Shown here: piece by piece, positions 1,790 through 53,578 of the stretch | Numbering within the stretch: position 1 is the first letter of the stretch | Layout: the number at the start of each line of letters is the position of its first letter | Assembly: GCF_027497195.1 (NCBI RefSeq) | Contig: NZ_CP114905.1 | Span: 3,706,001-3,770,000 of the forward strand | Reading direction: 5' to 3' | Length of the DNA: 64,000 nt | DNA from: Streptomyces sp. WMMC500 | GTDB taxonomy: Bacteria; Actinomycetota; Actinomycetes; Streptomycetales; Streptomycetaceae | The notes under the pieces: model-generated | The model's input: the letters and a program-made list of their open reading frames with translations, nothing else | Databases searched by the model: none | What the model was told of the DNA's origin: nothing | Translations under genes and position numbers: made by a program

Positions 1790-1841
1790 CGTCGTGCCTC
1801 CGTCGTGTACGCAGCTACGCAGGTTCGCGTCCGCATCGCGG

Positions 1842-4313
1842 TCACGCTTCGACCTCCTTGGATACGGCGGAAACCTGAACCAGGTCGCCGGGGTTCGCGC
1901 CCGTCGCCGCGGCCACGCCCGGGGTCGTCGACTGCAGCGGCAGCCACACGACCTGGTCGGGCAGCTCCGCGGTGACCCGCAGGGGGAGCGTCACCGTGCC
2001 GGTGGGGCCGGTGACCGCCAGCGGGTCGCCGTCGACGACGCCCGTGGCCTCCGCGGTGGCGGGCGAGAGCCGGGCCGCCGCCTCGTGGCGGGTGCCGGCC
2101 AGGGCGTCCTCGCCCTCCTGCAGCCTGCCCTCGTCGAGCAGCAGCCGGTGGCCTGCGAGCACCGCCTGGCCGGCGCCGGGCTGCGGCAGCGGCGCGGCGC
2201 GGTCGTCGGGCGGGGTGGGGCGCGGTCCTTCGGCGCGGACGCCGAGGCGGCGCAGCTCGGCCCGTGCCGTACGGGCGTCGGGCAGGCCCAGGTGGACGTC
2301 GAGGGCGTCGGCGAGCATGTGCAGCACGCGCATGTCCGCGGGGGCGAGCCGGCGGGTCATCTGGTCCGGCTTCAGCGCGGCCTCGAAGGGGCGGAGCCGG
2401 CCTTCCCAGTTGACGAACGTGCCCTGCTTCTCCGCGACCGCGGCCACCGGGAAGACCACGTCGGCCCGCTCGGTGACCTCGCTGGGCCGCTGCTCCAGGC
2501 TGACCACGAACTCGGCCCGGTCCAGCGCCTCGCGGGCCTTCGCCGGGTCCGGCAGGTCGGTGAGCGTGACGCCGCCGACGACCAGCGCGCCGATGTCGCC
2601 GGCCGCCGCGGCGTCGAGGATCTCGCCGGTGTCGCGGCCGCGCGAGCTCGGCAGTTCAGCCAGGCCCCACGCGGCGGCGGTCTCGCGGCGCGCCTCGGGG
2701 TCGGTGCCGGACCGGCCGCCGGGCAGCATCCCGGGCAGCGCACCGGCCTCGATCGCGCCGCGCTCGCCGGCGCGGCGCGGGATCCAGGCGAGGGTGGCGC
2801 CGGTGGCCTCCGCCGTACGCACCACGGCGGACAGCGCGCCGCGCACGCCCGCCAGCCGCTCGCCGACGAGGATCACCGCGCCCTCCTGGCGCAGCGCGTC
2901 GGAGGCGGCCTTGCCGTCCTCGCCGAGGCCCGCCCCGGAGCCGAGGGCGTCGAGCCAGCTCGGCTCGGTGCCGGGGGCGGCCGGCAGCAGCGTGCCGCCG
3001 GCCTTCGTCAGGCCGCGGGTGGCGAAGGGAGCGATCGCGTAGACCTTCAGGCCCTTCTTGCGCCACGCCTTGCGCAGCCGGAGGAAGACGCCGGGCGCCT
3101 CCTCCTCGGCCTCCAGACCGGCGAGCAGCACCGCGGGCGCCTTCTCCAGCGCCGCGTAGGTGACGCCGCGTCCGCTGCCCGCGACCCGCGCGGCCAGGAA
3201 CTCGGTCTCCTCGGCGCTGTGCACCCGGGCGCGGAAGTCGATGTCGTTGGTGCCGAGCGCGGCGCGCGCGAACTTCGCGTAGGCGTAGGAGTCCTCCAGC
3301 GTCAGCCGCCCGCCGGTGAGCACCCCGGCGCGCCCGCGGGCCGCCGCCAGTCCTGCCGCCGCGGCGCGCAGCGCCTCGGGCCAGCTCGCCGGCTGCAGCT
3401 CACCGCTGTCGTCGCGGACCAGCGGGTGGGTGAGCCGGTCGGGCATCTGCGCGTAGCGGAAGCCGAAGCGGCCCTTGTCGCACATCCACTCTTCGTTGAC
3501 CTCGGGGTCGTTGTCGGCGAGCCGCCGCATGACCTTGCCGCGCCGGTGGTCGGTGCGCGTGGCGCAGCCGCCTGCGCAGTGCTCGCAGACGGACGGCGAG
3601 GAGATCAGGTCGAAGGGGCGCGAGCGGAAGCGGTACATCTTCGAGGTGAGCGCGCCCACCGGGCAGATCTGGATGGTGTTGCCCGAGAAGTACGACTCGA
3701 AGGGCACGCCCTCGCCCGTACCGACCTGCTGCAGCGCGCCGCGGTCCAGCATCTCGATCATCGGGTCGCCCGCGACCTGGTTGGAGAACCGGGTGCAGCG
3801 CGCGCACAGCACGCAGCGCTCGCGGTCGAGCAGCACCTGCGTGGAGATCGGCACGGGCTTCTCGAAGGTGCGCTTCTGGCCGTCGAAGCGGGTCTCGGCC
3901 TGCCCCGCGGACATCGCCTGGTTCTGCAGCGGGCACTCGCCGCCCTTGTCGCAGACCGGGCAGTCCAGCGGGTGGTTGATGAGCAGCAGCTCCATCACGC
4001 CGCGCTGCGACTTCTCGGCCACGGCGGAGGTGAGCTGGGTCCTGACGACCATCCCGTCGGTGCAGGTGATGGTGCAGGACGCCGACGGCTTGCGCTGGCC
4101 CTCGATCTCGACGATGCACTGGCGGCAGGCGCCGACCGGGTCGAGCAGCGGGTGGTCGCAGAAGCGCGGGACCTCGATGCCGAGTTGCTCGGCGGCCCGG
4201 ATGACCAGGGTGCCCTTGGGCACGCTGACCTCGGCGCCGTCGATGGTCAGGGTGACCATGTTCTCCGGGGCGGCAGCCTTCTCCGCTGCCTTCTCCGGCT
4301 CCGTGACGGTCAC
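1842..4313 (-). CDS. nuoG: NADH-quinone oxidoreductase subunit G
   Basis: Large iron-sulfur subunit of complex I, 823 residues. I chose the GTG at 4313 because it overlaps the nuoF stop as GTGA; the longer open frame upstream is a shadow of nuoF. The N-terminus has the [2Fe-2S] cysteines (FCDHP...GACRQC...C), then the His-plus-three-Cys cluster ([18 protein letters not shown]), then two ferredoxin-like 4Fe-4S sets ([14 protein letters not shown]). A molybdopterin-oxidoreductase-type C-x2-C-x3-C...C cluster ([10 protein letters not shown] ... WMCDKGRF) opens the large C-terminal domain. That extra N7-type cluster is present as in E. coli-type NuoG. Confidence 0.97.
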
Positions 4314-5656
4314 GCGGACACCTCCTGGTGGTTCGTGGAGCCGGGGGTGTCGGCCCAGGCGGTGGACTTGGCCGGGTCGAAGGGGCAGCCACCGCCGATG
4401 ACGTGCTGCTCGTACTCCTCGCGGAAGTACTGCAGCGAGGAGAAGATCGGCGCGGCGGCGCCGTCGCCGAGGGCGCAGAACGACTTGCCGTTGATGTTGT
4501 CGGCGATGTCGTTGAGCTTGTCGAGGTCGGCGAGGGAGCCCTTGCCGGCCTCGATGTCGCGGAGCAGTTGGACGAGCCAGTACGTGCCCTCGCGGCAGGG
4601 CGTGCACTTGCCGCAGGACTCGTGCTCGTAGAACTCGGTCCAGCGGGTGACCGCCCGGACCACGCAGGTCGTCTCGTCGAAGCACTGCAGCGCCTTGGTG
4701 CCGAGCATGGAGCCGGCGCCGCCGACGCCCTCGTAGTCGAGGGGGACGTCCAGGTGCTCGTCGGTGAGCATCGGGGTGGACGAGCCGCCGGGGGTCCAGA
4801 ACTTCAGCCGGTGGCCGGGGCGCATGCCGCCGCCCATGTCGAGCAGTTGGCGCAGCGTGATGCCGAGCGGCGCCTCGTACTGGCCGGGGCGGGCGACGTG
4901 ACCGGAGAGCGAGTACAGCGTGAAGCCCGGGGACTTCTCGCTGCCCATCGTCCGGAACCACTCCTTGCCCTTGTTCATGATCGCGGGAACGGACGCGATG
5001 GACTCGACGTTGTTCACCACAGTGGGGCAGGCGTAGAGGCCCTCGACGGCCGGGAAGGGGGGACGCAGCCGGGGCTGGCCGCGGCGGCCCTCCAGCGAGT
5101 CGAGCAGCGCGGTCTCCTCACCGCAGATGTACGCGCCGGCGCCGGCGTGCACCGTGACCTCCAGGTCGAGCCCGGAGCCGAGGATGTCCTTGCCGAGCAA
5201 GCCCGCGGCGTACGCCTCGCGCACCGCCTCGTGCAGCCTGCGCAGCACCGGCACGACCTCGCCGCGCAGGTAGATGAACGCGTGGTTGGACCGGAACGCG
5301 TGGCAGGCGATGACGATGCCCTCGATGAGGGAGTGCGGGTTGGCGAAGAGCAGCGGGATGTCCTTGCAGGTGCCCGGCTCCGACTCGTCGGCGTTGACGA
5401 CGAGGTAGTGCGGCTTGCCGTCGCCCTGCGGGATGAACTGCCACTTCATGCCGGTGGGGAAGCCCGCGCCGCCCCGGCCGCGCAGGCCGGAGTCCTTGAC
5501 GTACGCGATGACGTCGTCGGGCGGCATCGCGAGCGCCTTGCGCAGCCCCTCGTAGCCCTCGTTGCGCCGGTACGTCTCCAGGGTCCAGGACTCGGGGTGG
5601 TCCCAGAAGGCGGAGAGCACCGGGGTCAGCAGCTTCTCCGGCGAGTCGACGGTCAT
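4310..5656 (-). CDS. nuoF: NADH-quinone oxidoreductase subunit F
   Basis: NADH-oxidising subunit that binds FMN and one [4Fe-4S] cluster. About 448 residues. Visible signatures are the glycine-rich nucleotide loop ([15 protein letters not shown] near residue 65), the FMN region ([12 protein letters not shown]), and the cluster ligands [13 protein letters not shown] near residue 350. The ATG at 5656 overlaps the nuoE stop by one base (TGATG); an in-frame GTG at 5659 is an equally coupled alternative (GTGA), so the start is uncertain by one codon. It overlaps nuoG by 4 bp. Confidence 0.97.
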
Positions 5657-6555
5657 CACGCGCCCTCCTCCTCGGTGGGCTCATCCGCGGACGCGGAGTG
5701 CGGGTGCGCCGGGTCGGACGCGGAGGTCTGCTGCGGCGCGTCGTGCGAACTGGGGTGGCCGGCGGGCGGCTGGTCCGCCAGCGCGTCCGGCGGCGGGCTC
5801 TGCGGGTGCGGCTCGGCGCGCTGGGTGACCACGCGCGCGGCCGGCTCCTCGCCCTTGGCCATGCGCAGCCCGATGAGCGAGGCGGGGCCCGCGCCGCCGG
5901 ACTCCTCGACGGCGCCGGGGCGCTGGTCGGGGAAGCCGGCCAGGATGCGCGCGGTCTCCTTGAACGTGCAGAGCTTCGCGCCGCGGGTGGGGTGTACGTC
6001 GTTGCCCGCGCGCAGGTCGTCCACGAGCCGCTTGGCGGACTCGGGCGTCTGGTTGTCGAAGAACTCCCAGTTGACCATCACCACGGGGGCGAAGTCGCAG
6101 GCGGCGTTGCACTCGATGTGCTCCAGGGTGACCTTGCCGTCCTCGGTGGTCTCCTGGTTGCCGAGGTCCAGGTACGCCTTCAGCTCGTCGAAGATGGCGT
6201 CGCCGCCCATGACCGCGCAGAGCGTGTTGGTGCAGACCCCGACCTGGTAGTCGCCCGAAGGTTTGCGCCGGTACATGGTGTAGAAGGTGGCGACCGCGGT
6301 CACCTCGGCGGCGGTCAGGTCCAGCATCTCGGCGCAGAACTGCATGCCGGTGCGGGTGACGTGCCCCTCCTCCGACTGCACCAGGTGCAGCATCGGCAGC
6401 AGCGCCGAACGGCTGTCCGGATACCGGGCGATGATCTCCCGGGCATCCGTTGCCAGCCGCTCGCGCACCTCGGCCGGGTAGTCGGGGGCGGGCAACTGGG
6501 GCATGCCCAGCGGGACGGCCGCCTGGCTGCTCACGTCGCGTTCCGCTGTCGTCAT
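5656..6555 (-). CDS. nuoE: NADH-quinone oxidoreductase subunit E
   Basis: Carries the [2Fe-2S] cluster N1a next to FMN. 299 residues from the ATG at 6555, which overlaps the nuoD stop (ATGA). The thioredoxin-like ferredoxin core has its cysteines in CTNTLC and ECNAAC. The family core is about 165 residues; here an extra C-terminal stretch of some 70 residues rich in Ala, Pro, Glu, His and Ser follows. This low-complexity tail is unlikely to be part of the cluster fold. Confidence 0.96.
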
Positions 6556-7880
6556 CGGTCGACGCCTCCCAGCACGGGGTCGAGGGATGCGATGGCCACG
6601 ATCACGTCGGCCACCTGGCCACCCTCGGTCAGGGCCGCGATGGCCTGCAGGTTCACGAACGAGGGCTCGCGGAAGTGCACCCGGAACGGGCGGGTGGCGC
6701 CGTCGCTGACGGCGTGCACACCCAGTTCGCCCTTGGGTGACTCCAACGCCACGTACGCCTGCCCGGGCGGCACCCGGAAGCCCTCGGTGACCAGCTTGAA
6801 GTGGTGGATCAGGGCCTCCATCGAGGTCCCCATGATGTTCTTGATGTGGTCCAGCGAGTTGCCGAGGCCGTCGGGCCCCAGCGCGAGCTGTGCGGGCCAG
6901 GCGATCTTCTTGTCGGCGACCATCACCGGGCCGGGCTCCAGCCGGTCCATGCACTGCTCGACGATCCGCAGCGACTGGCGCATCTCCTCCAGCCGGATGA
7001 GGAAGCGGCCGTAGGCGTCGGCGGTGTCGGCGGTGGGGACGTCGAAGTCGTACGTCTCGTAGCCGCAGTACGGGTCCGTCTTGCGCAGGTCGTGGGGCAG
7101 CCCCGTGGCGCGCAGCACCGGGCCCGTGACGCCCAGGGACATGCAGCCGGCCAGGTCCAGATGCGCGATGTTCTGCATCCGGGCCTTGAACGCGGGGTTG
7201 TTGGTGGCCAGCTTGTCGTACTCCGGGAAGTTCTTGCGGAGCGTCTTGAGCGTCTCGCGGATGGAGTCGACGGCGCCCGGGGGCAGGTCCTGCGCGAGGC
7301 CGCCCGGGCGGATGAACGCGTGGTTCATCCGCAGGCCGGTGATCAGCTCGAACAGGTCGAGGACCAGCTCACGGTCGCGGAAGCCGTAGATCATGACCGT
7401 GGTGGCGCCCAGCTCCATGCCGCCGGTGGCGATGGCCACCAGGTGGGAGGCGATCCGGTTCAGCTCCATGAGCAGCACCCTTATGACGGTGGCCCGGTCG
7501 GGGACCTCGTCGGTGATGCCGAGCAGCTTCTCCACCGCCATGCAGTACCCGGCCTCGTTGAAGAACGAGGTCAGGTAGTCCATGCGGGTCACGAAGGTGG
7601 AGCCCTGGGTCCAGGTGCGGTACTCGAGGTTCTTCTCGATGCCCGTGTGCAGATAGCCGATCCCGCAGCGGGTCTCCGTCACGGTCTCGCCGTCGATCTC
7701 CAGGATGAGCCGCAGCACGCCGTGGGTGGAGGGGTGCTGCGGGCCCATGTTGACGACGATCCGCTCGTCGTCGGCCCGGTGGACCGACTCGACGACCTCG
7801 TCCCAGTCGCCGCCGGTGACGGTGTAGACGGTGCCCTCGGTGGTCTCCCGGGCGGCCCCGGTCGCGTGGGTGGTGCTCAT
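6552..7880 (-). CDS. nuoD: NADH-quinone oxidoreductase subunit D
   Basis: 49-kDa-type subunit that lines the quinone reduction site together with NuoB. 442 residues from the ATG at 7880, overlapping the nuoC stop by 4 bp. The family motif [12 protein letters not shown] occurs near residue 45, and the conserved blocks [16 protein letters not shown] and [12 protein letters not shown] follow. The C-terminus ends in the conserved DPVLGGVDR. The frame continues upstream of 7880 only as a shadow of nuoC. Confidence 0.97.
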
Positions 7881-8616
7881 CGGTACGACCTCCGCTGGTC
7901 GGGAGCCGGGATCTGGGCGCCCTTGTACTCGACGGGGATGCCGCCGAGGGGGTAGTCCTTGCGCTGCGGATGGCCCTGCCAGTCGTCCGGCATGAAGATC
8001 CGGGTCAGGGCCGGGTGGCCGTCGAAGACGATGCCGAAGAAGTCGTAGACCTCGCGCTCGTGCCAGTCGTTCGTCGGGTAGACCTCCACGACGGACGGGA
8101 TGTGCGGGTCGTCGTCGGGCGCGCTGACCTCGACCCGGAGCAGCCGGGTGTGGGTGAGCGAACGCAGGTGGTACACCGCGTGCAGCTCGCGGCCCTTGTC
8201 CCCGGGGTAGTGCACGCCGGAGACGCCGGTACACAGCTCGAAGCGCAGCGCGGGGTCGTCGCGCAGGGTCCGCATGACGCGCAGCAGGTGCTTGCGGTCG
8301 ACGTGGAAGGTCAGCTCGCCGCGGTCGACGACGGTCTTCTCGATGGCGTTCTCGGGGAGGAGCCCCTGCTCGTCGAGGGCGCCCTCCAGCTCGTCCGCGA
8401 CCTCGTCGAACCAGCCGCCGTACGGGCGCACGGACTCGCCGGGCAGCCGGACGCCGCGCACCAGGCCGCCGTAGCCGGAGGTGTCGCCGGCGCCGCTCTC
8501 GGCGCCGAACATGCCGCGCTGGACGCGGATGGTCTCGCCCTGGTCGCCGCGGCGGCCCGGCAGGTTCTCCGCGTTCAGATCCTGGTCGGGGTTCACCCCG
8601 TCCGCGTTCTCCTCGC

Positions 8617-8620
<4 letters not shown>
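7877..8620 (-). CDS. nuoC: NADH-quinone oxidoreductase subunit C
   Basis: 30-kDa-type peripheral subunit, 247 residues. The GTG at 8620 is chosen because it overlaps the nuoB stop (GTGA). The conserved block [16 protein letters not shown] followed by [22 protein letters not shown] identifies the family. The first 60 or so residues are charged and variable, typical of actinobacterial NuoC. The separate NuoC and NuoD genes show that this is not the fused NuoCD arrangement of enterobacteria. Confidence 0.96.
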
Positions 8621-9171
<551 letters not shown>

Positions 9172-9183
9172 TCGTGGTGCCTC

Positions 9184-9543
9184 CTAGTCCCATTCCAGTC
9201 CGCCGCGCCGCCACACGTAGGCGTAGGCGACGAAGACAGTGAGCACGAAGAGCAGCATCTCGACGAGCCCGAAGATCCCCAGAGCGTCGAAGGAGACGGC
9301 CCAGGGGTAGAGGAAGACGATCTCGATGTCGAAGATGATGAACAACATCGCCGTCAGGTAGTACTTGACCGGGAAGCGGCCCCCGCCGGGCGGCTGCGGT
9401 GTCGGCTCGATGCCGCACTCGTACGCCTCGAGCTTGGCCCGGTTGTAGCGCTTCGGACCCACGAGCGCCGCCGCGACCACGGAGAACACCGCGAAGGCCG
9501 TCGCAATGGCTCCGAGCACGAGGATCGGCGTGTATACGTTCAC
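9184..9543 (-). CDS. nuoA: NADH-quinone oxidoreductase subunit A
   Basis: First gene of the complex I operon. It encodes a 119-residue membrane protein with three transmembrane helices and the family signatures YECGIEPT, KYYLTAMLFIIFDIEIVFLYPWA and a C-terminal YVWRRGGLEWD. The GTG at 9543 fits the family N-terminus; reading further upstream adds an unrelated charged segment. A purine-rich GGAGAGGAG lies upstream as a possible ribosome binding site. The regulatory region just beyond 9600 contains a likely Rex operator. Confidence 0.95.
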   Translation of the reverse strand: MNVYTPILVLGAIATAFAVFSVVAAALVGPKRYNRAKLEAYECGIEPTPQPPGGGRFPVKYYLTAMLFIIFDIEIVFLYPWAVSFDALGIFGLVEMLLFVLTVFVAYAYVWRRGGLEWD

Positions 9544-9627
9544 CGCTGCCCCGCTCCTCTCCAGTCGACGATGACTGCCTGCCAGTCCACACCGGACTCG
9601 CGTTCCTGCCCCACCAAGATCGCTCAC

Positions 9628-9645
9628 ATGTGAGGCAGTTCACAA
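9628..9645. promoter_or_regulatory. Putative Rex operator upstream of nuoA
   Basis: The 18-mer ATGTGAGGCAGTTCACAA keeps both half-sites (TGTGA and TTCACAA) of the Streptomyces Rex consensus TTGTGAACGCGTTCACAA and matches 13 of 18 positions, with mismatches mainly in the central spacer. Rex is an NADH/NAD+-sensing repressor known in Streptomyces to control respiratory genes, and nuo is an expected target. The site is about 85 bp upstream of the nuoA start. It overlaps the 12-bp palindrome CTCACATGTGAG at 9623-9634. No binding data are available here. Confidence 0.6.
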
Positions 9646-9656
9646 GCCCTACTGAT

Positions 9657-9671
9657 GGGCATCTTATGCCC
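9657..9671 (-). promoter_or_regulatory. Candidate nuoA promoter -10 within an inverted repeat
   Basis: GGGCATCTTATGCCC is a perfect 6-bp inverted repeat with a 3-bp centre. Read on the minus strand it contains TAAGAT, which fits a TANNNT -10 box. A transcript starting a few bases downstream would place the Rex-like site right at the start region, suitable for repression. The -35 is not convincing. Confidence 0.35.
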
Positions 9672-10251
9672 ACTGCGCTGTGATCTGTGACACGGGGGTC
9701 CCCTACGGCTTTGTGATCTTAAACACCCGGCGATCGATCGGACGGACGAATGCCCGCCGGACGGCGCCCGCGGTGCGAAGAAACGATCACCGGACCTCCG
9801 CCGGCGGCGAGCAACCGCAGGTCAGCGCCGCGAGGACCGTGGGGTTCGTGGCGCGGGTGATTTCACGGTGGCGCGGCCGGGGGCGAATTCGAGCGCGGCC
9901 GCGCTCAATTGTTTTCCGGGCCTCCGGGCGCTTGCGCGGGCCCTCTCAAGGCCCCCGAGCGGAGCACGGGACGCCCGACCCGACCGGAGTGATTTGGACC
10001 ACAGCGGGGCTTCCGGGGCAACCGTCCTCGCTTGGTTTGCGGCGGGAGAAGTGATAACCGTCCGGCAACGTTCGGCGCGCGGCCCAAATGCCGTGCGTAT
10101 CGGGCGGGTAACGACGCACGGGTCGCCGCGCATCGGAGAGCGTCGGGGGAACACACCGCCCAAATGCCCCATTTCACTGACGGGGCGGCCAAGTGTGGCG
10201 CATCCCACGACTGTTGAAAGACGGACCTTCCCCCTGATAGCGCTGGTGTTC
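9672..10251. other. Divergent intergenic region nuoA / NlpC-P60 gene
   Basis: About 580 bp without a believable gene. The reading frames that cross it lack normal codon bias. It holds a perfect 16-bp palindrome at 9891-9906 and must contain the promoter and leader of the NlpC/P60 gene at 10252. I looked for the cyclic-di-AMP (ydaO-type) riboswitch that precedes some Streptomyces wall hydrolase genes and could not recognise it. Confidence 0.5.
9891..9906. repeat. Perfect 16-bp palindrome
   Basis: GAGCGCGGCCGCGCTC is self-complementary along its full length and is bracketed by AATTC and AATTG. It has no loop, so it looks more like a protein-binding site than an RNA hairpin. It includes the NotI site GCGGCCGC at 9895-9902. 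Confidence 0.5.
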
Positions 10252-11094
10252 ATGTCCCGTAAACCGCACATACCCAGCCACCGGAAACCCCGGCGCCGGC
10301 AGGCCCCCGCGTGGGTCGTCCGCACCGGAGTCGCCGGTGGCGCCCTCGGCACGATGGTCGCGACGGCGGCGTCCGCTCCCGCCCTCGGCGACAGCAGCAG
10401 GACCACCGGGCCGACGGCCACGGAGTCGACCGCAGAACTCCCCGCCGTGAACGTGAGCACGGCGCTCTCCACCGGCGTCGAGCAGAGCGCCGACGCCACC
10501 CAGACCGCGGCCCTGCGCCTCGAACTGCGCACGGAGGCGCAGGAGGCCGCCCAGGACGCCCGCAAGGCGGCCGCGAAGGCCAAGAAGGAGGCGGAGGCCC
10601 GCGCCGCCGCCGAGGAGCGCGCCCGCGAGCGGGCAGCGGCCCGCGCGGCGGAGCGCGAGGAACTGGCCACGGCCTCCGCCGCGCCCGCCGCCGAGTCCAC
10701 CCAGGCCGCCGAGACCCCCGCGGCGGCCCCGGCCGCGTCGGGCAGCGTCGGCACGGTGCTGGACTTCCTCAACGCCCAGCTCGGCAAGGCGTACGTCCTG
10801 GGGGGCACGGGCCCGTCCTCGTACGACTGCTCGGGCCTGACCCAGGCGGCGTTCCGCCAGGTGGGCGTGGAGCTCCCCCGCACCGCCGCGGAGCAGTCCA
10901 CGGTCGGCACCCCGGTCGCGGTCTCCGACGTCCAGCCGGGCGACCTGGTCTTCTGGGGCGGCACCGGCTCGGCGTACCACGTGGCCGTGTACGTCGGCGA
11001 CGGCAAGTACCTGGACGCGGCCAACCCGTCGAAGGGCGTGGTGATCCAGGAGATGTCGTACTACATGCCCACCTCGGCCGCCCGGGTCCTCTGA
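10252..11094 (+). CDS. Secreted NlpC/P60 peptidoglycan hydrolase
   Basis: Cell-wall endopeptidase, 280 residues. The ATG at 10252 gives an N-terminus with a basic stretch (RKPRRRQ) and a hydrophobic, Ala-rich export signal. An Ala/Glu/Lys/Arg-rich coiled-coil segment follows (about residues 80-145), as in RipA-type hydrolases. The last 115 residues are the NlpC/P60 domain with the catalytic Cys in SSYDCSGLTQAAF and the His in AYHVAVYVGDGKYLDA. It is transcribed away from nuo and ends at a strong hairpin terminator. Confidence 0.9.
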   Translation: MSRKPHIPSHRKPRRRQAPAWVVRTGVAGGALGTMVATAASAPALGDSSRTTGPTATESTAELPAVNVSTALSTGVEQSADATQTAALRLELRTEAQEAAQDARKAAAKAKKEAEARAAAEERARERAAARAAEREELATASAAPAAESTQAAETPAAAPAASGSVGTVLDFLNAQLGKAYVLGGTGPSSYDCSGLTQAAFRQVGVELPRTAAEQSTVGTPVAVSDVQPGDLVFWGGTGSAYHVAVYVGDGKYLDAANPSKGVVIQEMSYYMPTSAARVL

Positions 11095-11124
11095 GCCGCT
11101 CCCCGGACCCTCCGCACGACGCGA

Positions 11125-11154
11125 GAGCCCCCGCCGGACGCCCGGCGGGGGCTC
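11125..11154. terminator. Intrinsic terminator hairpin
   Basis: A perfect 13-bp GC-rich stem (GAGCCCCCGCCGG paired with CCGGCGGGGGCTC) with the 4-nt loop ACGC lies between the convergent ends of the NlpC/P60 gene and the HD-domain gene. It lacks a T-run but is typical of Streptomyces terminators and could serve both strands. Confidence 0.8.
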
Positions 11155-11173
11155 CGCGCCTGCGTGTATCGCT

Positions 11174-11749
11174 CTACCGCAGATAGGTGCGCTGCCAGTC
11201 CGCCGAGCTCATGCCCTGGGCGGCGTCGGCGAGCGCTATGGCGGACGCCGTCTTCAGCCTCGCCCGCGTGCTGTCCACCCATTCCTGGGCGTTGCCATAG
11301 CCCTGTTCGAGATACTCCATGCCCTGCAGCATGCACTCCAGTCGGTCCGCGTCATGCGCCACGATGACCTCGACCGAGTCGCCGTTCTCGTACTCGTCGA
11401 CGACCGCCTGAATCCCCGCGGCCACGGCGGGATGCGCGTCCGCGAGCTGGTCGGCGGTCACGTCCTCGTTCTTCGCCGCGCTGAGGTAGCGGCGTCCCAC
11501 CCATGGGATGTCGCCGACACGGGTCTCCTGGGTGTCATGGAAGGTGCACAGAAGCGCCACCTTGGCGGGGTCGGCACCCTCGAGCATGGCCAGCACCGCA
11601 CCGATGACCGCGGTACGGAAGCTGTGCTCGGCGACGGTCTCGGGGTCCTTCACGCCGACGATCCACCAGCCGGTGCGCCGCGCCCGCTTCAGGGTTCCCA
11701 TCTCCAGCAGGTAGCCCACGGAGCCCTTGGCGAGGGCGTCATCGGTCAT
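11174..11749 (-). CDS. HD-domain phosphohydrolase (YfbR/HDDC2-like)
   Basis: 191 residues. Metal-binding HD motifs are visible: EHSFRTAV near residue 41, HDTQETRVGD near residue 70, and VAHDADRLE near residue 130. This is the pattern of 5'-deoxynucleotidase-like HD_3 proteins that dephosphorylate deoxynucleoside monophosphates. The substrate is inferred from family resemblance only. The gene lies just downstream of the frameshifted regulator on the same strand. Confidence 0.8.
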   Translation of the reverse strand: MTDDALAKGSVGYLLEMGTLKRARRTGWWIVGVKDPETVAEHSFRTAVIGAVLAMLEGADPAKVALLCTFHDTQETRVGDIPWVGRRYLSAAKNEDVTADQLADAHPAVAAGIQAVVDEYENGDSVEVIVAHDADRLECMLQGMEYLEQGYGNAQEWVDSTRARLKTASAIALADAAQGMSSADWQRTYLR

Positions 11750-11771
11750 AAGGTTTCTTCCCTCCGATAGG

Positions 11772-12838
11772 TCATGGCCTGCTCAGCCTCAGACCGTAAT
11801 GCAAGGAATCCAGTTCGCGCCGGGCCCGTCGGGACACACGGTCGGTGTCAAGCAGCACGGCGACCCGACGCCGGAGATCCCCTTGGTGGTCTGTCGCGAG
11901 GAGACCGGGATGGGAAGCGACGAGGGCCCATACCGAGTGGACGTTGAGGTCCACGCACCCGAGTGCGGGATCGAGACGGTCTGCGAGTCGTCGCAGCAGC
12001 GCCCCGGGATCCCAGGAGCGAGGTGCCGGGTCGGCCATGAACGAGTCGTCGGATCGTGGCAAACGGTCCAGCCCGAGCCAGTGTGCCCAGTAGTTGAGGT
12101 TGGCGGTCTCGCCGGCGTCGCTGCTCATCCCACGCTCGATGAAGGCGTGGAGCATCTCGACGTCGCCGTGCCGGGTCAGGGAGGTGGCCAGAGAGCGCGC
12201 ATCGGACCAGGCCGGCGCCCACGCGGAGTGGGTGAGCCGCGTCGCCCGGCGGCTTTGCATCGCGCCGAGCCATGCGTGCGTATCGGGAGCGGAGTCGTAG
12301 CTGCACAGGTACAGGGCCTGGCGGCGGAGCAGTGCGCCCTCCTCGCCGGCGCCGTCGGCCAGCTCCGCGGACCGGCGGAGGTGGTCGAAGAACCGCCGCC
12401 GCTCGTCGAAGCTCAGCGACGGTGCGGCGGGCGCCGGCCCCCGCCGTCTCGGCACATGCCTGGCGGGCTGGGGCAGGGCTGCCGGAGCCGACCCGTTGAT
12501 CGCCCACGTGAGCATGTGGGTCGCCGAGCGGGTGAAGACCCATCCCGCCAGTGGGTGGTCACGGAAGTCCGCATTCGCGCGTCCGGCCTCCAACGCATAG
12601 CCGATCACCGAATCGGCATCCATGGCGGCGTCCAAGAGCACCAGCAGCGCGGGATCCGCGCCGGTCCTCAGCAGATGCCGACGCAGGGAGAGGAACTGCG
12701 CCGCGGGAATCGCGGTCAGCGGGCGGCGGCCTGACTCCCCCCCTGGACCGTTGTCGAGTCGACGCCGAGATCCTCCGCCAGCTCGCACTGGGTGCGTGGA
12801 AGCCGCTCCCGGGCGACCTTGAAGAGGTGCCCCGTCAC
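11772..12838 (-). pseudogene. XRE-family regulator, split by a one-base frameshift
   Basis: A GTG at 12838 starts a helix-turn-helix segment (HLFKVARERLPRTQ, then ELAEDLGVDSTTVQG). That frame stops within 16 codons after a run of seven G (12737-12743 on this strand). The next frame continues with ESGRRPLTAIPAAQFLSLRRHLL and about 320 more residues of an alpha-helical, ligand-domain-like region ending at 11772. Joining VQG to the expected WESGRRPL needs one inserted T in the G run (GGGTGGG to GGGGGGG). So this is a single-base loss in a homopolymer, either a real mutation or a sequencing error. The rest of the gene is undamaged. Confidence 0.75.
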
Positions 12839-13116
12839 GACCCCGCCGCGGGGCCGCGTTCGCGAACCCTGCGCACCGGTCGGTGTTCCCTCACCTCTGC
12901 GAGACCCAGTCGGCGTCATGGCTCGCTCCCCGCGTGTCCGGGCCCTGAGTAACTCGTACCTTGCGTCAGTTTCGTGCCCCGCTCAGTCACCGTACGTTCG
13001 TAGCCCGGTGAACAAGCGCGGTAACGCACGCCTCAGCGTAGTCGCGCTGAGCGACCGCAGGCATACAGATCGTGCTTTCCCGCTCCACGTGACGACACCC
13101 AGGACAGAGGAGATCG

Positions 13117-13620
13117 GTGACGACGGTGGCACAGCACTTGCAGAACGCCGACACGCACACCGTCCACGAGTGGGCGATGCGTTACACCATGGTCAAGCGG
13201 TCAGTGCGGCTGACGCGCATCCACACCCGCCGCACACTGACCGGTTGGAGCTGGCACGGAGACATCGATGACGCTGTCCTCGTCGTTTCCGAACTGGTGA
13301 CGAACGCGGTCCAGCACGGTCGTCTGGCCGGGCACCTGCTCGCGTTGCGCCTCACGCTCCTCGAATGCGGCGCCCTGGTGATCGACGTCTCCGACCCGGT
13401 TCCGGGCTTCCCGAACTTCGCCGGTGCCCTCGCCCGGGATGCCGATCCACCGCACCGCGAGCGGGGGCGCGGCCTGCTTGTCGTGGCCCGGCTCGGCGGC
13501 GAGATCACCTGGTTCGAGCGGCGGTTCTGCGGCAAGACCGTACGCGCACGCCTCGCCGGCACGCGGGCCTGCCGGCGCTGCGACGACGGCTTGTGCACCA
13601 ATTCCCAAGGGGGCCCGTAG
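13117..13620 (+). CDS. ATP-binding regulatory protein (anti-sigma kinase-like, HATPase_c)
   Basis: 167 residues with the GHKL ATPase boxes of the RsbW/SpoIIAB-like family so common in Streptomyces: SELVTNAVQHG (N box, near residue 60), VIDVSDPVPGFPN (G1) and RGRGLLVVARLG (G2). Such proteins usually bind and inhibit a sigma factor or phosphorylate an anti-anti-sigma factor; no partner lies beside it. The GTG at 13117 has a GAGGAG ribosome binding site. The C-terminus has a small Cys cluster (CRRCDDGLC), which may bind metal. It is convergent with the truncated reductase fragment. Confidence 0.85.
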   Translation: MTTVAQHLQNADTHTVHEWAMRYTMVKRSVRLTRIHTRRTLTGWSWHGDIDDAVLVVSELVTNAVQHGRLAGHLLALRLTLLECGALVIDVSDPVPGFPNFAGALARDADPPHRERGRGLLVVARLGGEITWFERRFCGKTVRARLAGTRACRRCDDGLCTNSQGGP

Positions 13621-13639
13621 GTGATGCCACCGCAAATGG

Positions 13640-13874
13640 TTACGCGCGGGGGGCTACCTTCGTCAGGCCGTTGATGATGCGGTCCATGGCGTCGCCGCCC
13701 TGGGGGTCCGTGAGGTTCGCCAGCAGTTTGAGGGCGAAGCGCATGAGGACCGGGTGGGTCAGGCCGCGTTCCGTGGCGAGCTTCATGACCTTCGGGTTGC
13801 CAATGAGGCGGACGAAGGCGCGGCCCAACTGGTAGTACCCGCCGTAGGTGTCCTTGAGGACCTTCGGGTAGCGC
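13640..13874 (-). pseudogene. Detached 3' end of geranylgeranyl-reductase-family gene
   Basis: The last 76 or so codons of the reductase at 16349-17647 are repeated here in the same orientation, ending VAPRA and a TAA stop at 13640. The final codons differ from those of the intact gene (CGC GCG TAA against CGA GCT TGA) although the amino acids are the same. This copy carries no N-terminal part; at 13875 the sequence changes abruptly into low-GC DNA belonging to the restriction module. An open frame running upstream to 13942 is fortuitous. Confidence 0.85.
13647..13874. repeat. 228-bp direct repeat, left copy (flank of R-M module)
   Basis: Matches 16355-16582 at 226 of 228 positions (differences at 13745 and 13802). 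The two copies are 2,708 bp apart and bracket the two restriction-modification genes. The right boundary coincides with AGCGCTCAGCGCT (13870-13882), a palindrome occurring twice in tandem. Confidence 0.95.
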
Positions 13875-13964
13875 TCAGCGCTAGGTTCGGACGCAAGTCC
13901 ACGATGGCAACGTGGGCGCTGCAGGGGGAGCACATCGGACACTGACGTGGCACCGCCCTCCGGG

Positions 13965-15107
13965 CTACGGACGAAGCTCAGGAAGATACTCAGCGAGCTT
14001 CACCGTGATGCGGTCACGAAGTCTGTCAACGGAACCGCCGGCCTCGAGGAGTGCCTCCGGCGCGACCTCCAACGCGAAGTAGGCCAGAGTTGGGGCATCA
14101 GTGCCGATGACCCGCCAGAGATTCAGTTTGTTGGGCGTCTGCGTCGCGGAAACCTCAGTGTCGAAGACGTAGATCCATGCTTGCGGAGATTCTTCAAGAT
14201 CAACATCGGGCTTGCTGAGCCGATAAGTTCCATCCGGCGCTGGAATCAATTCAGGCGCACCGAGGTGCTTTTGCCAGCTACCCCAAACAGCGCGAGGAAT
14301 CGCGAAAATGCATCCCGCCGAGGTATCATGCGCGCCCACCTGAAACTTCAGAATCATCTGATAGAAGGTACGCTTGAAGATGTTCGAGTAGTTTGGACCT
14401 TCGACACGCTCAGCAAGCAGGTGCCGGTGACCATCGATCTGCTGCTTGAACTCATCGGGATACATACGCAGGTTCTCACTGATATTACGAACAGCCTGCT
14501 CGTATGTCCCATGAAAGTCAGCAGTCTGAATCTCGAAGATCCCGTACTTCCCTACACACAACGATCCGGCCGAATCCTTAATTACCTCAACCATTGTTGA
14601 GTCAAACGAAAAGGCCGGAGAGCGTTCGGTTTCGCTAAGCTTAATCTCACCACCGAGATTGTTCTGGAAGTAGACTATTGTCGGCTGGCCAGCAGCAACG
14701 CGATCACGCAGCTTTTCAATTTCCACATCCTTTTCAAGGAGAGGGGCCGGCGTGAGAGTGATTTCGTCAGCGATGTCGTACTCGAAGAGGCGGTGCGCGG
14801 CGTCACGGAGCATAGCCGTGTCGAGAGCACGAAAGGGGCACGCCAGCCAGTCCTGGCGCTCAGGGCTGCGTCTACTGATGCTGCTGATCGTACATACGCC
14901 TCGCGACTTCCCATCGTTTCTCTCGACCTTCACACACTGATAGTCCGTTCCCGTGGCTTCGGTGAGAAAAGGGCAACGCTGCGCTTGCTGATCACGGATG
15001 CTGGTGTCCGTCTGTGCGACCTCGGGATAGAGTCGGTGCCCGTACCACTCGGCGATAAAGTTGCTGGGCGCCTTCTTCTTCCGAGGCGTCCCTTTGGACT
15101 TCGACAT
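13965..15107 (-). CDS. NotI-family type II restriction endonuclease
   Basis: 380 residues. The N-terminal block NFIAEWYGHRLYPEV, the segment CPFLT, DWLACPFRALD and the block EGPNYSNIFKRTFYQM closely resemble NotI as I remember it. NotI is a PD-(D/E)XK enzyme with an unusual iron-Cys4 fold; four matching cysteines are seen at residues 45, 58, 72 and 90. The conserved acidic and Gln block EIQTADFHGTY fits the catalytic region. The start ATG abuts the methyltransferase stop (TGAATG). Base composition is clearly lower in GC than the neighbours, a sign of transfer. The recognition site is likely GC-rich, GCGGCCGC or a related sequence, but this cannot be read from the sequence. Confidence 0.88.
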   Translation of the reverse strand: MSKSKGTPRKKKAPSNFIAEWYGHRLYPEVAQTDTSIRDQQAQRCPFLTEATGTDYQCVKVERNDGKSRGVCTISSISRRSPERQDWLACPFRALDTAMLRDAAHRLFEYDIADEITLTPAPLLEKDVEIEKLRDRVAAGQPTIVYFQNNLGGEIKLSETERSPAFSFDSTMVEVIKDSAGSLCVGKYGIFEIQTADFHGTYEQAVRNISENLRMYPDEFKQQIDGHRHLLAERVEGPNYSNIFKRTFYQMILKFQVGAHDTSAGCIFAIPRAVWGSWQKHLGAPELIPAPDGTYRLSKPDVDLEESPQAWIYVFDTEVSATQTPNKLNLWRVIGTDAPTLAYFALEVAPEALLEAGGSVDRLRDRITVKLAEYLPELRP

Positions 15108-16211
15108 TCAAGACCCCGATTCACTGGATTCGACTTCTGGAATGTCGATCGCAAGCTGCCCGAGAATTTGATCGGCGTTCCTTTTAGCTGCATCGCAAAA
15201 CTCAGAATTGAGCTCAAAGCCGATAGCCCTCCGGCCTGTTTGAGCAGAGACCGTCAACGATCTCCCGGTGCCACAGAACGGGTCAAGAACTGTTCCCCCG
15301 GGTGGACAGGAACTAAGGATGCGCGGCCTGATGAGGGAAATCGGGAAGGTTGCCGAATGACCGTCTGATCCCGACCGGACATGAGTGGTCACGACATCGC
15401 TTTCGTTCCCCTCTACGACCTGGAAGTCGTAGTAGGCCGGCTCTGTGTCCTCGTATCCAGCTTCGTCGAACTCGTAGAAGGCAACATCGCGTGCTCCTTC
15501 TTCCACTTGCGCCATATCGTAGTGGTACTTCGGGCGTCCTTCCTTTGCCCGCTTGACGAAGTGAAAGAAGTGTTCATGGGAAAGCCGTAGTCTATCCTTT
15601 TCGGGACGCGGAGGAACATTCGGCTTGTGCCAGATCAAATCATTCCTGAGAATCCATCTGCGCTCTTGCATTGCAATAGCGAAGCGCGCAGGAACCATTA
15701 GGAGCTGCTTCTCCTGCCGGTATCCCCCCATGGGTGTCCGTCGCCGAGATCGTGGATTGTCACCCAGCCCTTGCCTGCCGTCGTGCCGAATGCTCGACCA
15801 GCGTGCGAAGTAGGTGTCGCCAACGTTGATCCACATACTGCCTTCGGCCTTGAGCGCCTGCGCTCCCCGCTGGAGGATCTCAACGAGATGACCGATGAAC
15901 CACTCAGGGAGGGGCTCAAGGCCCAAAACCCCCCCGTGCTCGCGGTACCACTCGTACGGAGGCACGTCGGTCTGCACCCTGGAGGAGTCTTCGGCAAGCC
16001 ACTCCTTCAAGATTTCCTCGTTGTGCTCCTGACCATAGGTTCGGAGACCCCAGTACGGTGGTGAAGTGATCAACAGGTCGATAGACTCGTCCGGCAGATC
16101 CGCCATGAGGTCATACGAGTCGCCGTGACGTACCTCGATCACGTCATCACTGGCACCCGCCCGATCCAGGTCGGACGTTCTGCCCTCTTCAACCCCTACC
16201 TGCGTAACCAC
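15108..16211 (-). CDS. DNA methyltransferase of the NotI-like system
   Basis: 367 residues. Motif IV is TSPPYW near residue 50 and the AdoMet motif DPFCGTGRSL comes near residue 307. This order marks a beta-class amino-methyltransferase, and SPPY rather than DPPY favours N4-cytosine methylation. It would protect host DNA from the adjoining NotI-like nuclease. It precedes and directly abuts the nuclease gene, so protection would be made first. The GTG at 16211 is the longest start; a GTG at 16142 just before the conserved region is an alternative. GC content is low for this genome. Confidence 0.88.
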   Translation of the reverse strand: MVTQVGVEEGRTSDLDRAGASDDVIEVRHGDSYDLMADLPDESIDLLITSPPYWGLRTYGQEHNEEILKEWLAEDSSRVQTDVPPYEWYREHGGVLGLEPLPEWFIGHLVEILQRGAQALKAEGSMWINVGDTYFARWSSIRHDGRQGLGDNPRSRRRTPMGGYRQEKQLLMVPARFAIAMQERRWILRNDLIWHKPNVPPRPEKDRLRLSHEHFFHFVKRAKEGRPKYHYDMAQVEEGARDVAFYEFDEAGYEDTEPAYYDFQVVEGNESDVVTTHVRSGSDGHSATFPISLIRPRILSSCPPGGTVLDPFCGTGRSLTVSAQTGRRAIGFELNSEFCDAAKRNADQILGQLAIDIPEVESSESGS

Positions 16212-16348
16212 AAGGAGATCCTAGTAGGTTGGAGTGACAGCCGTGGCCATCAATGCTTCGGGAGCCAACCGGGGACGATGAGGGCTCTTCATCGGCATCC
16301 CCCCTCGCCTCGCAGGTTCGGGTGCCGGGTGGTGCGGGTGCGCGATTC

Positions 16349-17647
16349 TCAAGCTCGGGGGGCTACCTTCGTCAGGCCGTTGATGATGCGGTCCATGGCG
16401 TCGCCGCCCTGGGGGTCCGTGAGGTTCGCCAGCAGTTTGAGGGCGAAGCGCATCAGGACCGGGTGGGTCAGGCCGCGTTCCGTGGCGAGCTTCATGACCT
16501 TCGGGTTGCCGATGAGGCGGACGAAGGCGCGGCCCAACTGGTAGTACCCGCCGTAGGTGTCCTTGAGGACCTTCGGGTAGCGCCGCAGGGCCAGCTCGCG
16601 CTGGGCGTAAGTCGCGCGGCTGTGGGCCTGGACGACGACGTCCGCGACGATCTGGCCGGACTCCATCGCGTACGCGATGCCCTCGCCGTTGAACGGGTTG
16701 ACCATGCCGCCGGCGTCGCCGACGAGGAGCAGGCCGCGGTCGTAGTGCGGCTGCCGGTTGAAGGCCATAGGGAGGGCGGCACCGCGGATGGGGCCCGTCA
16801 TGTTGTCCGGGGTGTAGCCCCACTCCTCCGGCATCGAGGCGCACCACGCCTTGAGCACGTCGCGCCAGTCCAGCTCCTTGAAGGCGGACGAGGAGTTGAG
16901 GATGCCGAGGCCGACGTTGGACGTGCCGTCGCCCATGCCGAACACCCAGCCGTACCCGGGCAGCAGCCGGTCCTCGGGGCCGCGCTTGTCCCACAGCTCC
17001 AGCCAGGACTCCAGGTAGTCGTCCTCGTGCCGCGGGGAGGTGAAGTACGTCCGCACGGCCACGCCCATCGGGCGCTTCTCGTTGCGGTGCAGGCCCATGG
17101 CCAGCGAGAGCCGCGAGGAGTTGCCGTCGGCGGCGATGACCAGCGGGGCGTGGAAGGTGACGGGCGTCTTCTCCTCGCCGAGCCTGGCGTGGACGCCCGT
17201 GATCCGGCCCGTGCGCTCGTCGATGACCGGCTGTCCGACGTTGCACCGCTCGTAGAGCTGCGCGCCCGCCTTCTGCGCCTGCTGCGCGAGCTGCTGGTCG
17301 AAGTCGTCGCGCTTGCGCACCAGCCCGTAGTCGGGGTAGGCGGCCAGCTCCGGCCAGTCGAGCTGCAGCCTGTTGCCCCCGGCGATGATCCGCAGGCCCT
17401 TGTTCCGCAGCCAGCCGGCCTCTTCCGAGACGTCGATGCCCATGGCGACGAGCTGCTTCGTCGCCCGCGGGGTGAGCCCGTCGCCGCAGACCTTCTCGCG
17501 GGGGAACGCCGTCTTCTCCAGGAGCAGGACGTCGAGCCCGGCCTTGGCGAGGTAGTACGCGGTCGTCGAGCCGGCCGGCCCGGCCCCGACGACGATCACA
17601 TCGGCACTGCGGGTGGACTCAGAGGCGTCGGTCACGGCGGCTCCCAT
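16349..17647 (-). CDS. Geranylgeranyl reductase family FAD-dependent oxidoreductase
   Basis: 432 residues. The FAD-binding loop DVIVVGAGPAGSTTAYYLAKAG opens the protein, the family motif EKVCGDGLTPRA follows near residue 55, and LLVGDAGGMVNPFNGEG comes near residue 300. Members reduce isoprenoid double bonds, for example on menaquinone side chains or lipids, and the setting between nuo and menaquinone genes suits such a role, though that is inference. The 3' end lies in a 228-bp repeat. Its last codons (CGA GCT TGA) probably came in with the restriction module, yet the C-terminus APRA is preserved. Confidence 0.9.
   Translation of the reverse strand: MGAAVTDASESTRSADVIVVGAGPAGSTTAYYLAKAGLDVLLLEKTAFPREKVCGDGLTPRATKQLVAMGIDVSEEAGWLRNKGLRIIAGGNRLQLDWPELAAYPDYGLVRKRDDFDQQLAQQAQKAGAQLYERCNVGQPVIDERTGRITGVHARLGEEKTPVTFHAPLVIAADGNSSRLSLAMGLHRNEKRPMGVAVRTYFTSPRHEDDYLESWLELWDKRGPEDRLLPGYGWVFGMGDGTSNVGLGILNSSSAFKELDWRDVLKAWCASMPEEWGYTPDNMTGPIRGAALPMAFNRQPHYDRGLLLVGDAGGMVNPFNGEGIAYAMESGQIVADVVVQAHSRATYAQRELALRRYPKVLKDTYGGYYQLGRAFVRLIGNPKVMKLATERGLTHPVLMRFALKLLANLTDPQGGDAMDRIINGLTKVAPRA
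16355..16582. repeat. 228-bp direct repeat, right copy (3' end of intact reductase gene)
   Basis: Partner of 13647-13874, 99 percent identical. It is the final 228 bp or so of the complete reductase gene, so the gene remains functional despite the insertion. The repeat ends two codons before the stop, after which the two copies diverge. Confidence 0.95.
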
Positions 17648-17825
17648 ATAACGCGGGTCGTTCCCCGCAGTCTAAGTGCCGCCTCCGACACCGCCGCGCG
17701 CGCCCCGGGGCGCGACAGCGCGTCGACCTAGCACACTCAAGCACGCGAGGTAGCAGCTTCCGGACCGTCTGGCGGGGGCTCGGCGTCCGGCGCTAGTGTG
17801 AGCTTCGGCCGTGCAGCGGCCCCGG

Positions 17826-17860
17826 CTCTGCCGACAGCCCGTGACTGTCGGTTTCCAGAG
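17826..17860. repeat. Inverted repeat in the 17648-17964 intergenic region
   Basis: CCGACAG at 17831-17837 pairs with CTGTCGG at 17845-17851, with outer CTCTG/CAGAG arms. The 317-bp region around it lies between the reductase start and the gene at 17965 (divergent). It also contains TAGTGT, a possible -10 box, near 17793. No gene is seen. Confidence 0.4.
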
Positions 17861-17964
17861 CCCGAAGGTGCGTCGCATTCTGCACAACCGTTCGCTTCTT
17901 CCTGCGTTCGCCCTGGTAGGCGTGCCGGGTCACGGGTCTGTCGCGCCAGAGTCAGGACGACACA

Positions 17965-18627
17965 GTGGTGAGGAACCACCGCCGTAAGTATGAGGCGAAG
18001 CAGCGCCAGGCGGACACCGGCGAGAGCTATCAGGTCGCGCTCAACGCGGTGCGTAACGACACCCACTTCGCCGCCGCCCTCCTCATCGCACGACGGGCTT
18101 TCAGCGCGGACGACAAGGCGGAGGTGGACCGCTTCGGGGTCCAGTGGCTGGGGCTGGACCCGCGGGAACTCGATGCGATGCGGATCGCTTTGGAGCGCGT
18201 ACTGCTGGACATACGCCCCGGCGACGGCGTCACACCCGACCAGGCAGAGGTGCGGCGGCGGCTGAAGTCCACGCACGAGCGCTGGCAGCGCTTCCAGCAG
18301 GAACCGGTACGCGGTGCGCTGGTCCTGGCGGGCGAGAACGAGGTACGAGACCTCTGTCGTTCGGTGCATCCACTGCTGGTGAGCGACGCGGCTGTCCATG
18401 CGGTAACGCTGGCCAGCGAGCTGGACGACCACCGGTTCGCGGTGGCGTTCGCGAAGCTCGACCCCGCGGCGCAGACCGTCGCGAAGACGTGGGCCTTCCT
18501 GGGCTCCTCCTGGCAGGCCGCGGCCGTCTTCTGGGGTCTCCCGCCCGACTACGGGGAATCGGTCAGACACCATCTCAAGATCAGCGCCAAGCGCTTCACG
18601 GGCCCGCGGAGGAGGCGGGTGGAGTGA
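17965..18627 (+). CDS. Hypothetical protein, predicted soluble
   Basis: 220 residues, function not recognised. A basic N-terminus (NHRRKYEAKQRQ) is followed by predicted helices without membrane segments and a basic C-terminus (GPRRRRVE). The start is a GTG preceded by AGGACGA. Codon use is normal for the genome, so the gene is real. It overlaps the next gene by 4 bp (GTGA), so the two are translated together. Confidence 0.7.
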   Translation: MVRNHRRKYEAKQRQADTGESYQVALNAVRNDTHFAAALLIARRAFSADDKAEVDRFGVQWLGLDPRELDAMRIALERVLLDIRPGDGVTPDQAEVRRRLKSTHERWQRFQQEPVRGALVLAGENEVRDLCRSVHPLLVSDAAVHAVTLASELDDHRFAVAFAKLDPAAQTVAKTWAFLGSSWQAAAVFWGLPPDYGESVRHHLKISAKRFTGPRRRRVE

Positions 18628-18884
18628 CACTGCACATTGCTCCGATCAACGCGCTGGTTTTCGTGCTCGGCTGCGTCGTAGCCCACCTCGTTTACGCCCG
18701 CGGCAGAAAAGCCCAGCCCCATCGCACTCCGGGGCCAGAGCAACTAGCCGCGGCCATCGCCTCAGGCGCGGCGGTCGTCGCGAGTCTGGCTGTCCTGCTC
18801 GGAGTCGGCGACGGGCCGGGTGCCGTGCCGCCGGGTGGAGAGCCGTCTCCGGGCGTGTCGTCGCCGGCAACGCCTCCGCCATAA
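18624..18884 (+). CDS. Small two-helix membrane protein, coupled to upstream gene
   Basis: 86 residues. A hydrophobic N-terminal helix (ALVFVLGCVVAHLVYARG) and a second one (AAAIASGAAVVASLAVLLGVG) flank a short basic loop, and the C-terminal 20 residues are rich in Pro, Gly and Ser. The GTG at 18624 overlaps the preceding stop. The pairing with a soluble protein suggests a two-part unit; its function is unknown. Confidence 0.65.
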   Translation: MTLHIAPINALVFVLGCVVAHLVYARGRKAQPHRTPGPEQLAAAIASGAAVVASLAVLLGVGDGPGAVPPGGEPSPGVSSPATPPP

Positions 18885-18908
18885 GGCACGTGCCCCGAGG
18901 CCGCGGGT

Positions 18909-53334: not shown

Positions 53335-53501
53335 CGCCACAGCACCGCCAGGGCACCACGCTGGTGGAGGAGGCCGGGCGGCAGCACGACGTCCGTAACC
53401 CGTGCCGCTCCAGCTCGGTGAAGCCGACGCCATCGACTTCGCTCGCGGGCACCAAGCCCCGGCGGGTCTGATTCACCGCATCGGCGAGACCTCTTCGACC
53501 G

Positions 53502-53578
53502 TCAGGGCCAGACGAGGCAGTACGGCTAGTGGCCGGCCTCGTGCAGTCTGTCGGCGAACTCCTGCCATTCGTGGAGCC
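53502..53578. repeat. 3'-end repeat family, copy 3
   Basis: Matches 59342-59418 at 74 of 77 positions (differences at 53515, 53529 and 53536). It encodes the last 25 residues of the gene at 59343 plus its stop, and begins abruptly at 53578. Confidence 0.9.

Follow-up and report, generated by a model that had tools for sequence, protein, structure and literature searches.

How does a restriction-modification (R-M) gene pair come to lie between two copies of the end of one resident gene? The 64,000-nucleotide stretch of Streptomyces sp. WMMC500 considered here (contig NZ_CP114905.1, positions 3,706,001 to 3,770,000; hereafter the window, from a genome consisting of one 8.6-Mb contig) raises this question at 13640-16583, where a NotI-family nuclease gene and a methyltransferase gene stand between a complete menJ-like gene and a displaced second copy of its 3' end. 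R-M genes are widespread, though many are without a recombinase, and their route of insertion is an old open question. As the two copies can be distinguished by their ends and near relatives are known, the locus makes it testable whether the ends predate the insertion. The copies were found to carry different end types, resembling those of different relatives, and we propose, with a probability of roughly 0.5, that one-sided homologous capture with a non-homologous second joint produced the locus.

The R-M pair and the duplicated menJ end

The direct repeat (13644-13874 and 16353-16583) comprises 231 bp at 98.7% identity, so that the R-M unit between duplicated reductase 3' ends described in an earlier note on this DNA is real. 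When aligned from their stop codons (13640 and 16349), the two copies differ at 5 of 235 sites, three of them within the terminal 8 bases and two internal, and both keep the same APRA-stop ending with different last codons. On the minus strand, the order from low to high coordinate is the displaced menJ fragment (copy 1, 13640-13874), a 90-bp gap up to the nuclease stop (13875-13964), in which the menJ homology does not significantly continue, the nuclease gene (13965-15107, 380 amino acids), the methyltransferase gene (15108-16211, 367 amino acids), 137 bp, and the complete menJ-like gene (16349-17647, 432 amino acids), inside which copy 2 lies (16353-16583). The methyltransferase TGA stop directly abuts the nuclease ATG. 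The 137-bp interval consists of a stretch next to the methyltransferase gene (16212-16330), with only short matches (<45 bp) in the genus sample, and approximately 18 bp past the menJ stop (16331-16348). The GC content of the R-M pair is 0.565, compared to 0.703 for menJ and 0.71 for the whole window. The complete gene belongs to the geranylgeranyl reductase family (TIGR02032, E 4e-87), and its protein scores 234.8 bits against the MenJ model NF045655, under the equivalog cut-off of 700. Matches to the menJ 3' end at E <= 0.001 occur in these two places only of the WMMC500 genome. No transfer RNA or transfer-messenger RNA (tmRNA) gene was found in the window, and a simple promoter scan of 4.2 kb, which is uninformative for this organism, gave no match.

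A profile of 23 nuclease homologues matched the solved NotI structures (PDB 3bvq and 3c25) with E 1.2e-108, aligning profile positions 7-375 (of 389) with positions 5-370 of NotI. The Pfam NotI model did not match the nuclease, nor did any other Pfam model, and its assignment to the NotI family is thus based on the profile match to PDB 3bvq; several homologues carry the name 'NotI family restriction endonuclease'. Residues C45, C58, C72, C90, D169, E192, and Q194 are invariant across the 23 aligned sequences, and the last three align with D160, E182, and Q184 of NotI (PDB-sequence numbering, counted on the alignment), which we take to be catalytic, while the four cysteines align with NotI cysteines that are presumably metal-binding. 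The homology to NotI is thus full-length. The methyltransferase matches PF01555 (N6_N4_Mtase, E 3.4e-35), has a Type II methyltransferase as its best PADLOC match (E 9.2e-156), and contains SPPY at residue 50 and DPFCGTG at residue 310; a homologue of it adjoins the nuclease in many, not all, of the 55 NotI-family loci described below. The enzyme families named in the earlier note were therefore both recovered, and the pair is, by sequence, an ordinary NotI-family system with intact genes, which may be active and under selection as such. Avoidance of NotI sites was considered and discarded, as GCGGCCGC occurs 15 times in the window against 16.7 expected and is not depleted.

Nuclease genes of this type are sporadic in the genus, being present in 5 of 392 sampled genomes including WMMC500, and a menJ 3' match is present in 391 of the 392. 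The other four genomes carry the nuclease in five places at 58-63% identity, and no menJ-like gene (tblastn, E <= 1e-5) was found in the stretches around those five (L038, L046-L049). Among the 120 listed of 1233 protein-database matches, Streptomyces and Actinacidiphila relatives show 71-77% identity. A scan of viral contigs gave two loci with nuclease relatives, in one of which (L101, 8966-11158) a NotI-type R-M pair is located near a terminase large-subunit gene.

End types of menJ in the nearest relatives

The three nearest relatives, G050, G047, and G222, each have one menJ 3' end and no R-M genes there, as anticipated for strains without the module. Window positions 11302-13884 and 16349-17707 map onto overlapping parts of a single G050 contig, both of them reaching across the one menJ end there. 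The counterparts of window positions 11158-11165 and 16331 are only approximately 4-12 bp apart in G047 and G222. Relatives that keep both 3' ends without the module, or synteny of the two genes as part of the genus core, were not seen. A second insertion at the same spot (11159-13640), which the earlier note had missed, goes with the other end type; it consists of an HD-domain gene (11174-11749, minus strand), a 338-amino-acid gene without a Pfam match (11772-12788, minus strand), and an HATPase gene (13117-13620, plus strand), with no recombinase among these three recognised genes. This block is present in G050 (84%), and G047 and G222 have neither its three genes nor the R-M pair at menJ.

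The menJ gene ends in CGA GCT TGA followed by GAATTCGCGCAC in G047, in CGG GCT TGA followed by GAATTCGCGCAC in G222, and in CGC GCG TGA in G050. Copy 2, within the full gene of WMMC500, ends in CGA GCT TGA followed by GAATCGCGCAC, and the approximately 18 bp past its stop resemble the sequence downstream of menJ in G047 and G222. Copy 1 ends in CGC GCG TAA and is followed by the ATPase gene as in G050. Column 231 of the alignment accordingly separates copy 1 and G050 from copy 2, G047, and G222, and column 228 separates copy 1 and G050 from copy 2 and G047, with a third base in G222, whereas column 233 (TAA) is private to copy 1. The locus thus seems, on these sequences, to combine two alleles of the interval downstream of menJ, either of which may have been the resident one.

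In G050, a relic of the G047-type menJ end, GTGTGCACGAATTCTCAAGC, was observed at approximately 420-460 of L043, beside an NlpC-like gene (named by eye); it is separated from menJ by the HD/ATPase block and is absent from the window genome. The relic indicates that the HD/ATPase block of G050 was itself inserted at the menJ stop, changing the gene end, without R-M genes, and that the G047-type end is probably the older type in this clade. The proposal of the earlier note that one end is native and one was imported is consistent with the two end types, though, going by this one relic, the native end may be the one next to the R-M pair.

Of the genomes with at least two menJ 3' matches, 70 were inspected at each matching place, and a second long menJ 3' copy was found in WMMC500 only; the extra matches in the others are 27-93 bp and are located elsewhere.

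NotI-family units with repeats at other genes

A search of genome contigs with the homologue alignment as query gave 53 loci, compared to none with the single protein, and a total of 55 NotI-family loci were examined (the window, L038, and L044-L096), of which 50 had sufficient flanks of the nuclease (a shorter flank of 300 bp or more and a longer one of 1800 bp or more). In 5 of these 50 loci, the nuclease is enclosed by direct repeats that are 40 bp or longer, share 80% identity or more, and are spaced 0.3-6 kb apart. Because the same 926,870 bp contain only 8 other such repeat pairs, in 5 loci, repeats around the nucleases are above chance. One of the five (L086, 110 bp) was left out of the count of tight repeats, as its NotI-type R-M genes lie in an island (5539-11370) with a phage-type integrase gene and the repeat is at a tmRNA gene end. 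The remaining four units (the window, L054, L056, and L088), from actinomycetes and Pseudomonadota, are tightly flanked. Each is located at a different gene, and in each the repeat coincides with the 3' end of a complete gene and terminates no more than approximately 12 bp from the stop codon of that gene. The NotI family thus has tight gene-3'-end repeats more than once, though a count of four out of four at gene 3' ends is no more than suggestive. In L055, where the end of a GMC oxidoreductase gene is repeated exactly over 20 bp, the repeat is below the 40-bp threshold and was not counted.

In L056, from a Rhodospirillales metagenome-assembled genome, the unit has a C5-type methyltransferase and the 216-bp repeat belongs to an Mg_chelatase/comM-type gene. 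Its two copies are 82.2% identical to each other, and the identity of six close relatives (L123-L128) is 83.2-87.9% with the full copy and 85.0-89.7% with the fragment; more distant relatives (L129-L136) show 75.6-85.0% identity. The two copies did not pair in a FastTree phylogeny. A recent target duplication at L056 is disfavoured, since the copies are less alike than each is to L123-L128. In G526 (L127), a single comM end is followed directly by the gene that adjoins the L056 fragment (90.8% over 710 bp), and in G527 and G517 approximately 1.4 kb of other DNA follows the comM end. The changes by codon position (5/2/10 for the fragment, 3/2/16 for the full copy) lean towards separate functional histories but were rejected as proof of them, because a functional full copy alone could largely explain the distribution; the reading of L056 is therefore based on the identities and the tree. 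The end types at menJ together with the L056 tree point to a fusion of two alleles over target duplication.

In L054, from Actinomadura logoneensis, the 96-bp repeat is at a guanylate/adenylate cyclase-domain gene, and the unit is in the opposite direction. The repeat contains a 68-bp identical run amid diverged edges, and the terminal AKS of the fragment is similar to the AKP and TKP ends found in L163 and L162, unlike TRL, the end of the full gene; the gene beside the fragment was not found next to the cyclase-domain gene in the relatives compared. The fourth unit, L088 of Ca. Nitricoxidireducens (Pseudomonadota), has a 46-bp repeat at an exonuclease III-type gene.

Some further gene-end rearrangements were observed in the loci compared. 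An exonuclease III-type gene is split in two in L154 (G578, 927-5583), where the insert contains HNH, Vsr, and C5 methyltransferase genes as well as a second exonuclease III-type family gene in the opposite direction. In L152 (G555, 1119-5055), two copies of an exonuclease III-type gene end (106 bp, 75%) flank 3.7 kb that contain, among other genes, one for a short-chain dehydrogenase. An Mg_chelatase-type gene end is repeated in L155 (G543, 1980-3076; 142 bp, 98.6%) around 0.8 kb with a 190-amino-acid open reading frame without a Pfam match.

Proposed origin of the menJ locus and a possible cassette site in the window

Considering these results, we propose the following scenario. One allele (A) would have carried the R-M unit approximately 18 bp behind a menJ end of the G047/G222 type, and another (B) the HD/338-amino-acid/ATPase block behind a menJ end of the G050 type. 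An exchange inside the shared menJ sequence would have set one border, and the other border would be a non-homologous joint at 13874/13875, some 225 bp into menJ, or else the point where a circle had closed. This would yield a complete menJ ending as in allele A, then the R-M pair, and then a dead 3' fragment ending as in allele B; the structure may be kept because its loss would be costly, as cells without the methyltransferase would be attacked. Homology to menJ is present at one R-M border and none was detected past the other joint, though the event, the donor, and the order of steps can only be inferred. Homology-facilitated illegitimate recombination (PMC3240628), which has been invoked for displaced immunity genes in Vibrio (PMC5361080), has one homologous and one non-homologous border and keeps the displaced resident end downstream, as the scenario would have it for menJ. 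It was proposed for Vibrio effector-immunity arrays, whereas at menJ the donor and the event would have to be supposed.

Several observations weigh against this scenario. In the repeat interior, copies 1 and 2 are sisters (tree support 0.966) and have five alleles in common that are absent from G050, G047, and G222, which agrees with the recent movement suggested by the earlier note. At columns 48, 102, and 105, both copies go with G050 and differ from G047 and G222; copy 1 has two private changes in its interior. Since the interiors are nearly identical, the two alleles would have to be conspecific, or the copies to have been homogenised later. The likeness of copy 2 to G047 is restricted to its end and could have arisen by plain target duplication, from a conspecific donor, or through gene conversion, and the end-type argument stands on two of three bases plus the approximately 18 bp. 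G050 is a draft assembly of 1770 contigs that is 82% complete. No genome with R-M genes next to menJ was found, so that the donor allele is a supposition. Diverged menJ sequence upstream of the fragment was not above shuffles in the window, L054, L056, or L088. The copies of L088 are identical and uninformative, plain duplication fitting equally well. In the window, the menJ homology had seemed on inspection to extend past the upstream edge of the 231 bp, but this extension was rejected after shuffling, as 500 of 2000 shuffles scored as well over 40 bp and 420 of 2000 over 80 bp.

Insertion with long target duplication, in which the R-M unit would have inserted while copying approximately 225 bp of the resident menJ and the end codons would be later changes or the edge of the unit, has reportedly been described for R-M genes by Nobusato et al. 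in 2000 and Furuta et al. in 2010. The setting at menJ, a recombinase-free unit between long direct repeats with single-copy relatives, places it among the R-M units already known to be flanked by long repeats, for which long, variable target duplications in the order of 100 bp are described (PMC3874152, PMC1643837, PMC3031569). Target duplication would account for the sister relationship and shared private alleles of the menJ copies, for the identical 46-bp repeat of L088, and for the tight flanking of 4 of 50 NotI-family units. However, two of the three end differences and the approximately 18 bp downstream resemble different relatives, and the L056 copies are not sisters but as diverged as those of separate species, which makes this explanation unlikely. 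A single crossover with a pre-formed circle carrying the last 225 bp of menJ and the R-M genes (Campbell type) would lead to an identical arrangement in which each end type is on the side expected; however, the circle would itself still need a non-homologous joint, and the carriers searched gave only 2 nuclease relatives at approximately 25% identity in 72,556 plasmid records and none in 50,697 phage records, making such a circle very improbable. It is also conceivable that the HD block and the R-M pair entered a G047-type locus as a single 5.2-kb insertion, since the G047-type flanks of both sides together are nearly complete, though this does not explain why copy 1 is the sister of copy 2. 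The overall interpretation in the earlier note was thus partly supported, a circle with a single crossover, linear one-sided recombination, and long target duplication all being compatible with the locus.

The window also contains a case in which gene-end repeats recur. A sodium:dicarboxylate symporter gene (33121-34476, PF00375) has its 3' part repeated (31950-32078 and 33162-33293), and the repeat encloses genes for a Phd/YefM-type antitoxin (32418-32717) and a ParE-type toxin (32714-32980). Beyond the full gene, one symporter 3' fragment is present in the window, three in G222 (L210), and one in G047 (L211), and all five start at base 228 of the last 400 bases of the gene; G050 (L212) has a 33-bp piece only. 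A 22-bp cassette end was located by pattern search next to four of the five fragments (those of the window and G047 and two from G222), and the place at the third G222 fragment is similar by eye. The G047 insert, which encodes a Resolvase/Recombinase protein, RepSA, FtsK/SpoIIIE, and GntR, resembles an integrative element of actinomycetes. In G222, the inserts encode AAA_14/DUF4143, DUF4276 with AAA_21, and a protein that weakly matches Arc, and appear to carry defence-like genes. From its gene content and borders, the symporter locus thus looks like a serine integrase site with an array of cassettes that lack an integrase.

Cis-mobilizable elements are flanked by attL and attR. By analogy, the R-M pair may be a cassette that is flanked by attachment sites, lacks an integrase of its own, and is moved in trans by one that uses the menJ 3' end; the likeness lies in cargo without an integrase between gene-end repeats, and the symporter case, with a serine recombinase beside one fragment in G047, shows a possible model in the same window. 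The menJ locus nevertheless differs from the site-specific pattern, because, among the 70 genomes inspected, the second long copy was seen only in WMMC500, unlike the recurrent symporter fragments, and no recurrent start or shared end sequence was found. Furthermore, the tight-repeat NotI units are at four different genes, their ends share matches of 7-12 bp only, and neither R-M gene is a recombinase by Pfam, the genome otherwise being unsearched for an integrase. We therefore regard a trans-mobilised cassette as doubtful.

Returning to one-sided capture, its extension to the family can be offered only tentatively. The 'long target duplication' of NotI-family units may be allele fusion, in which an R-M unit behind a host gene enters by one-sided recombination there, leaving the displaced end of the other allele; the 3' end would be the entry port as homology stops near the stop codon, and R-M addiction would keep the product. 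If the NotI family does anchor at gene 3' ends in this way, long R-M repeats would record allele fusion and not a transposition-like step, and the donor allele would be findable by sequencing. This reading was not met in the R-M insertion literature looked at, though it may have been published.

Two further features of the window were noted. Upstream of menJ, approximately 1.2 kb (17708-18908) contains a 220-amino-acid open reading frame (17965-18627), and the G050 homologues of window positions 17707 and 18909 are approximately 11 bp apart. In addition, a 77-bp direct repeat with 96% identity is present at 53501-53577 and 59342-59418, with a spacing of 5.8 kb.

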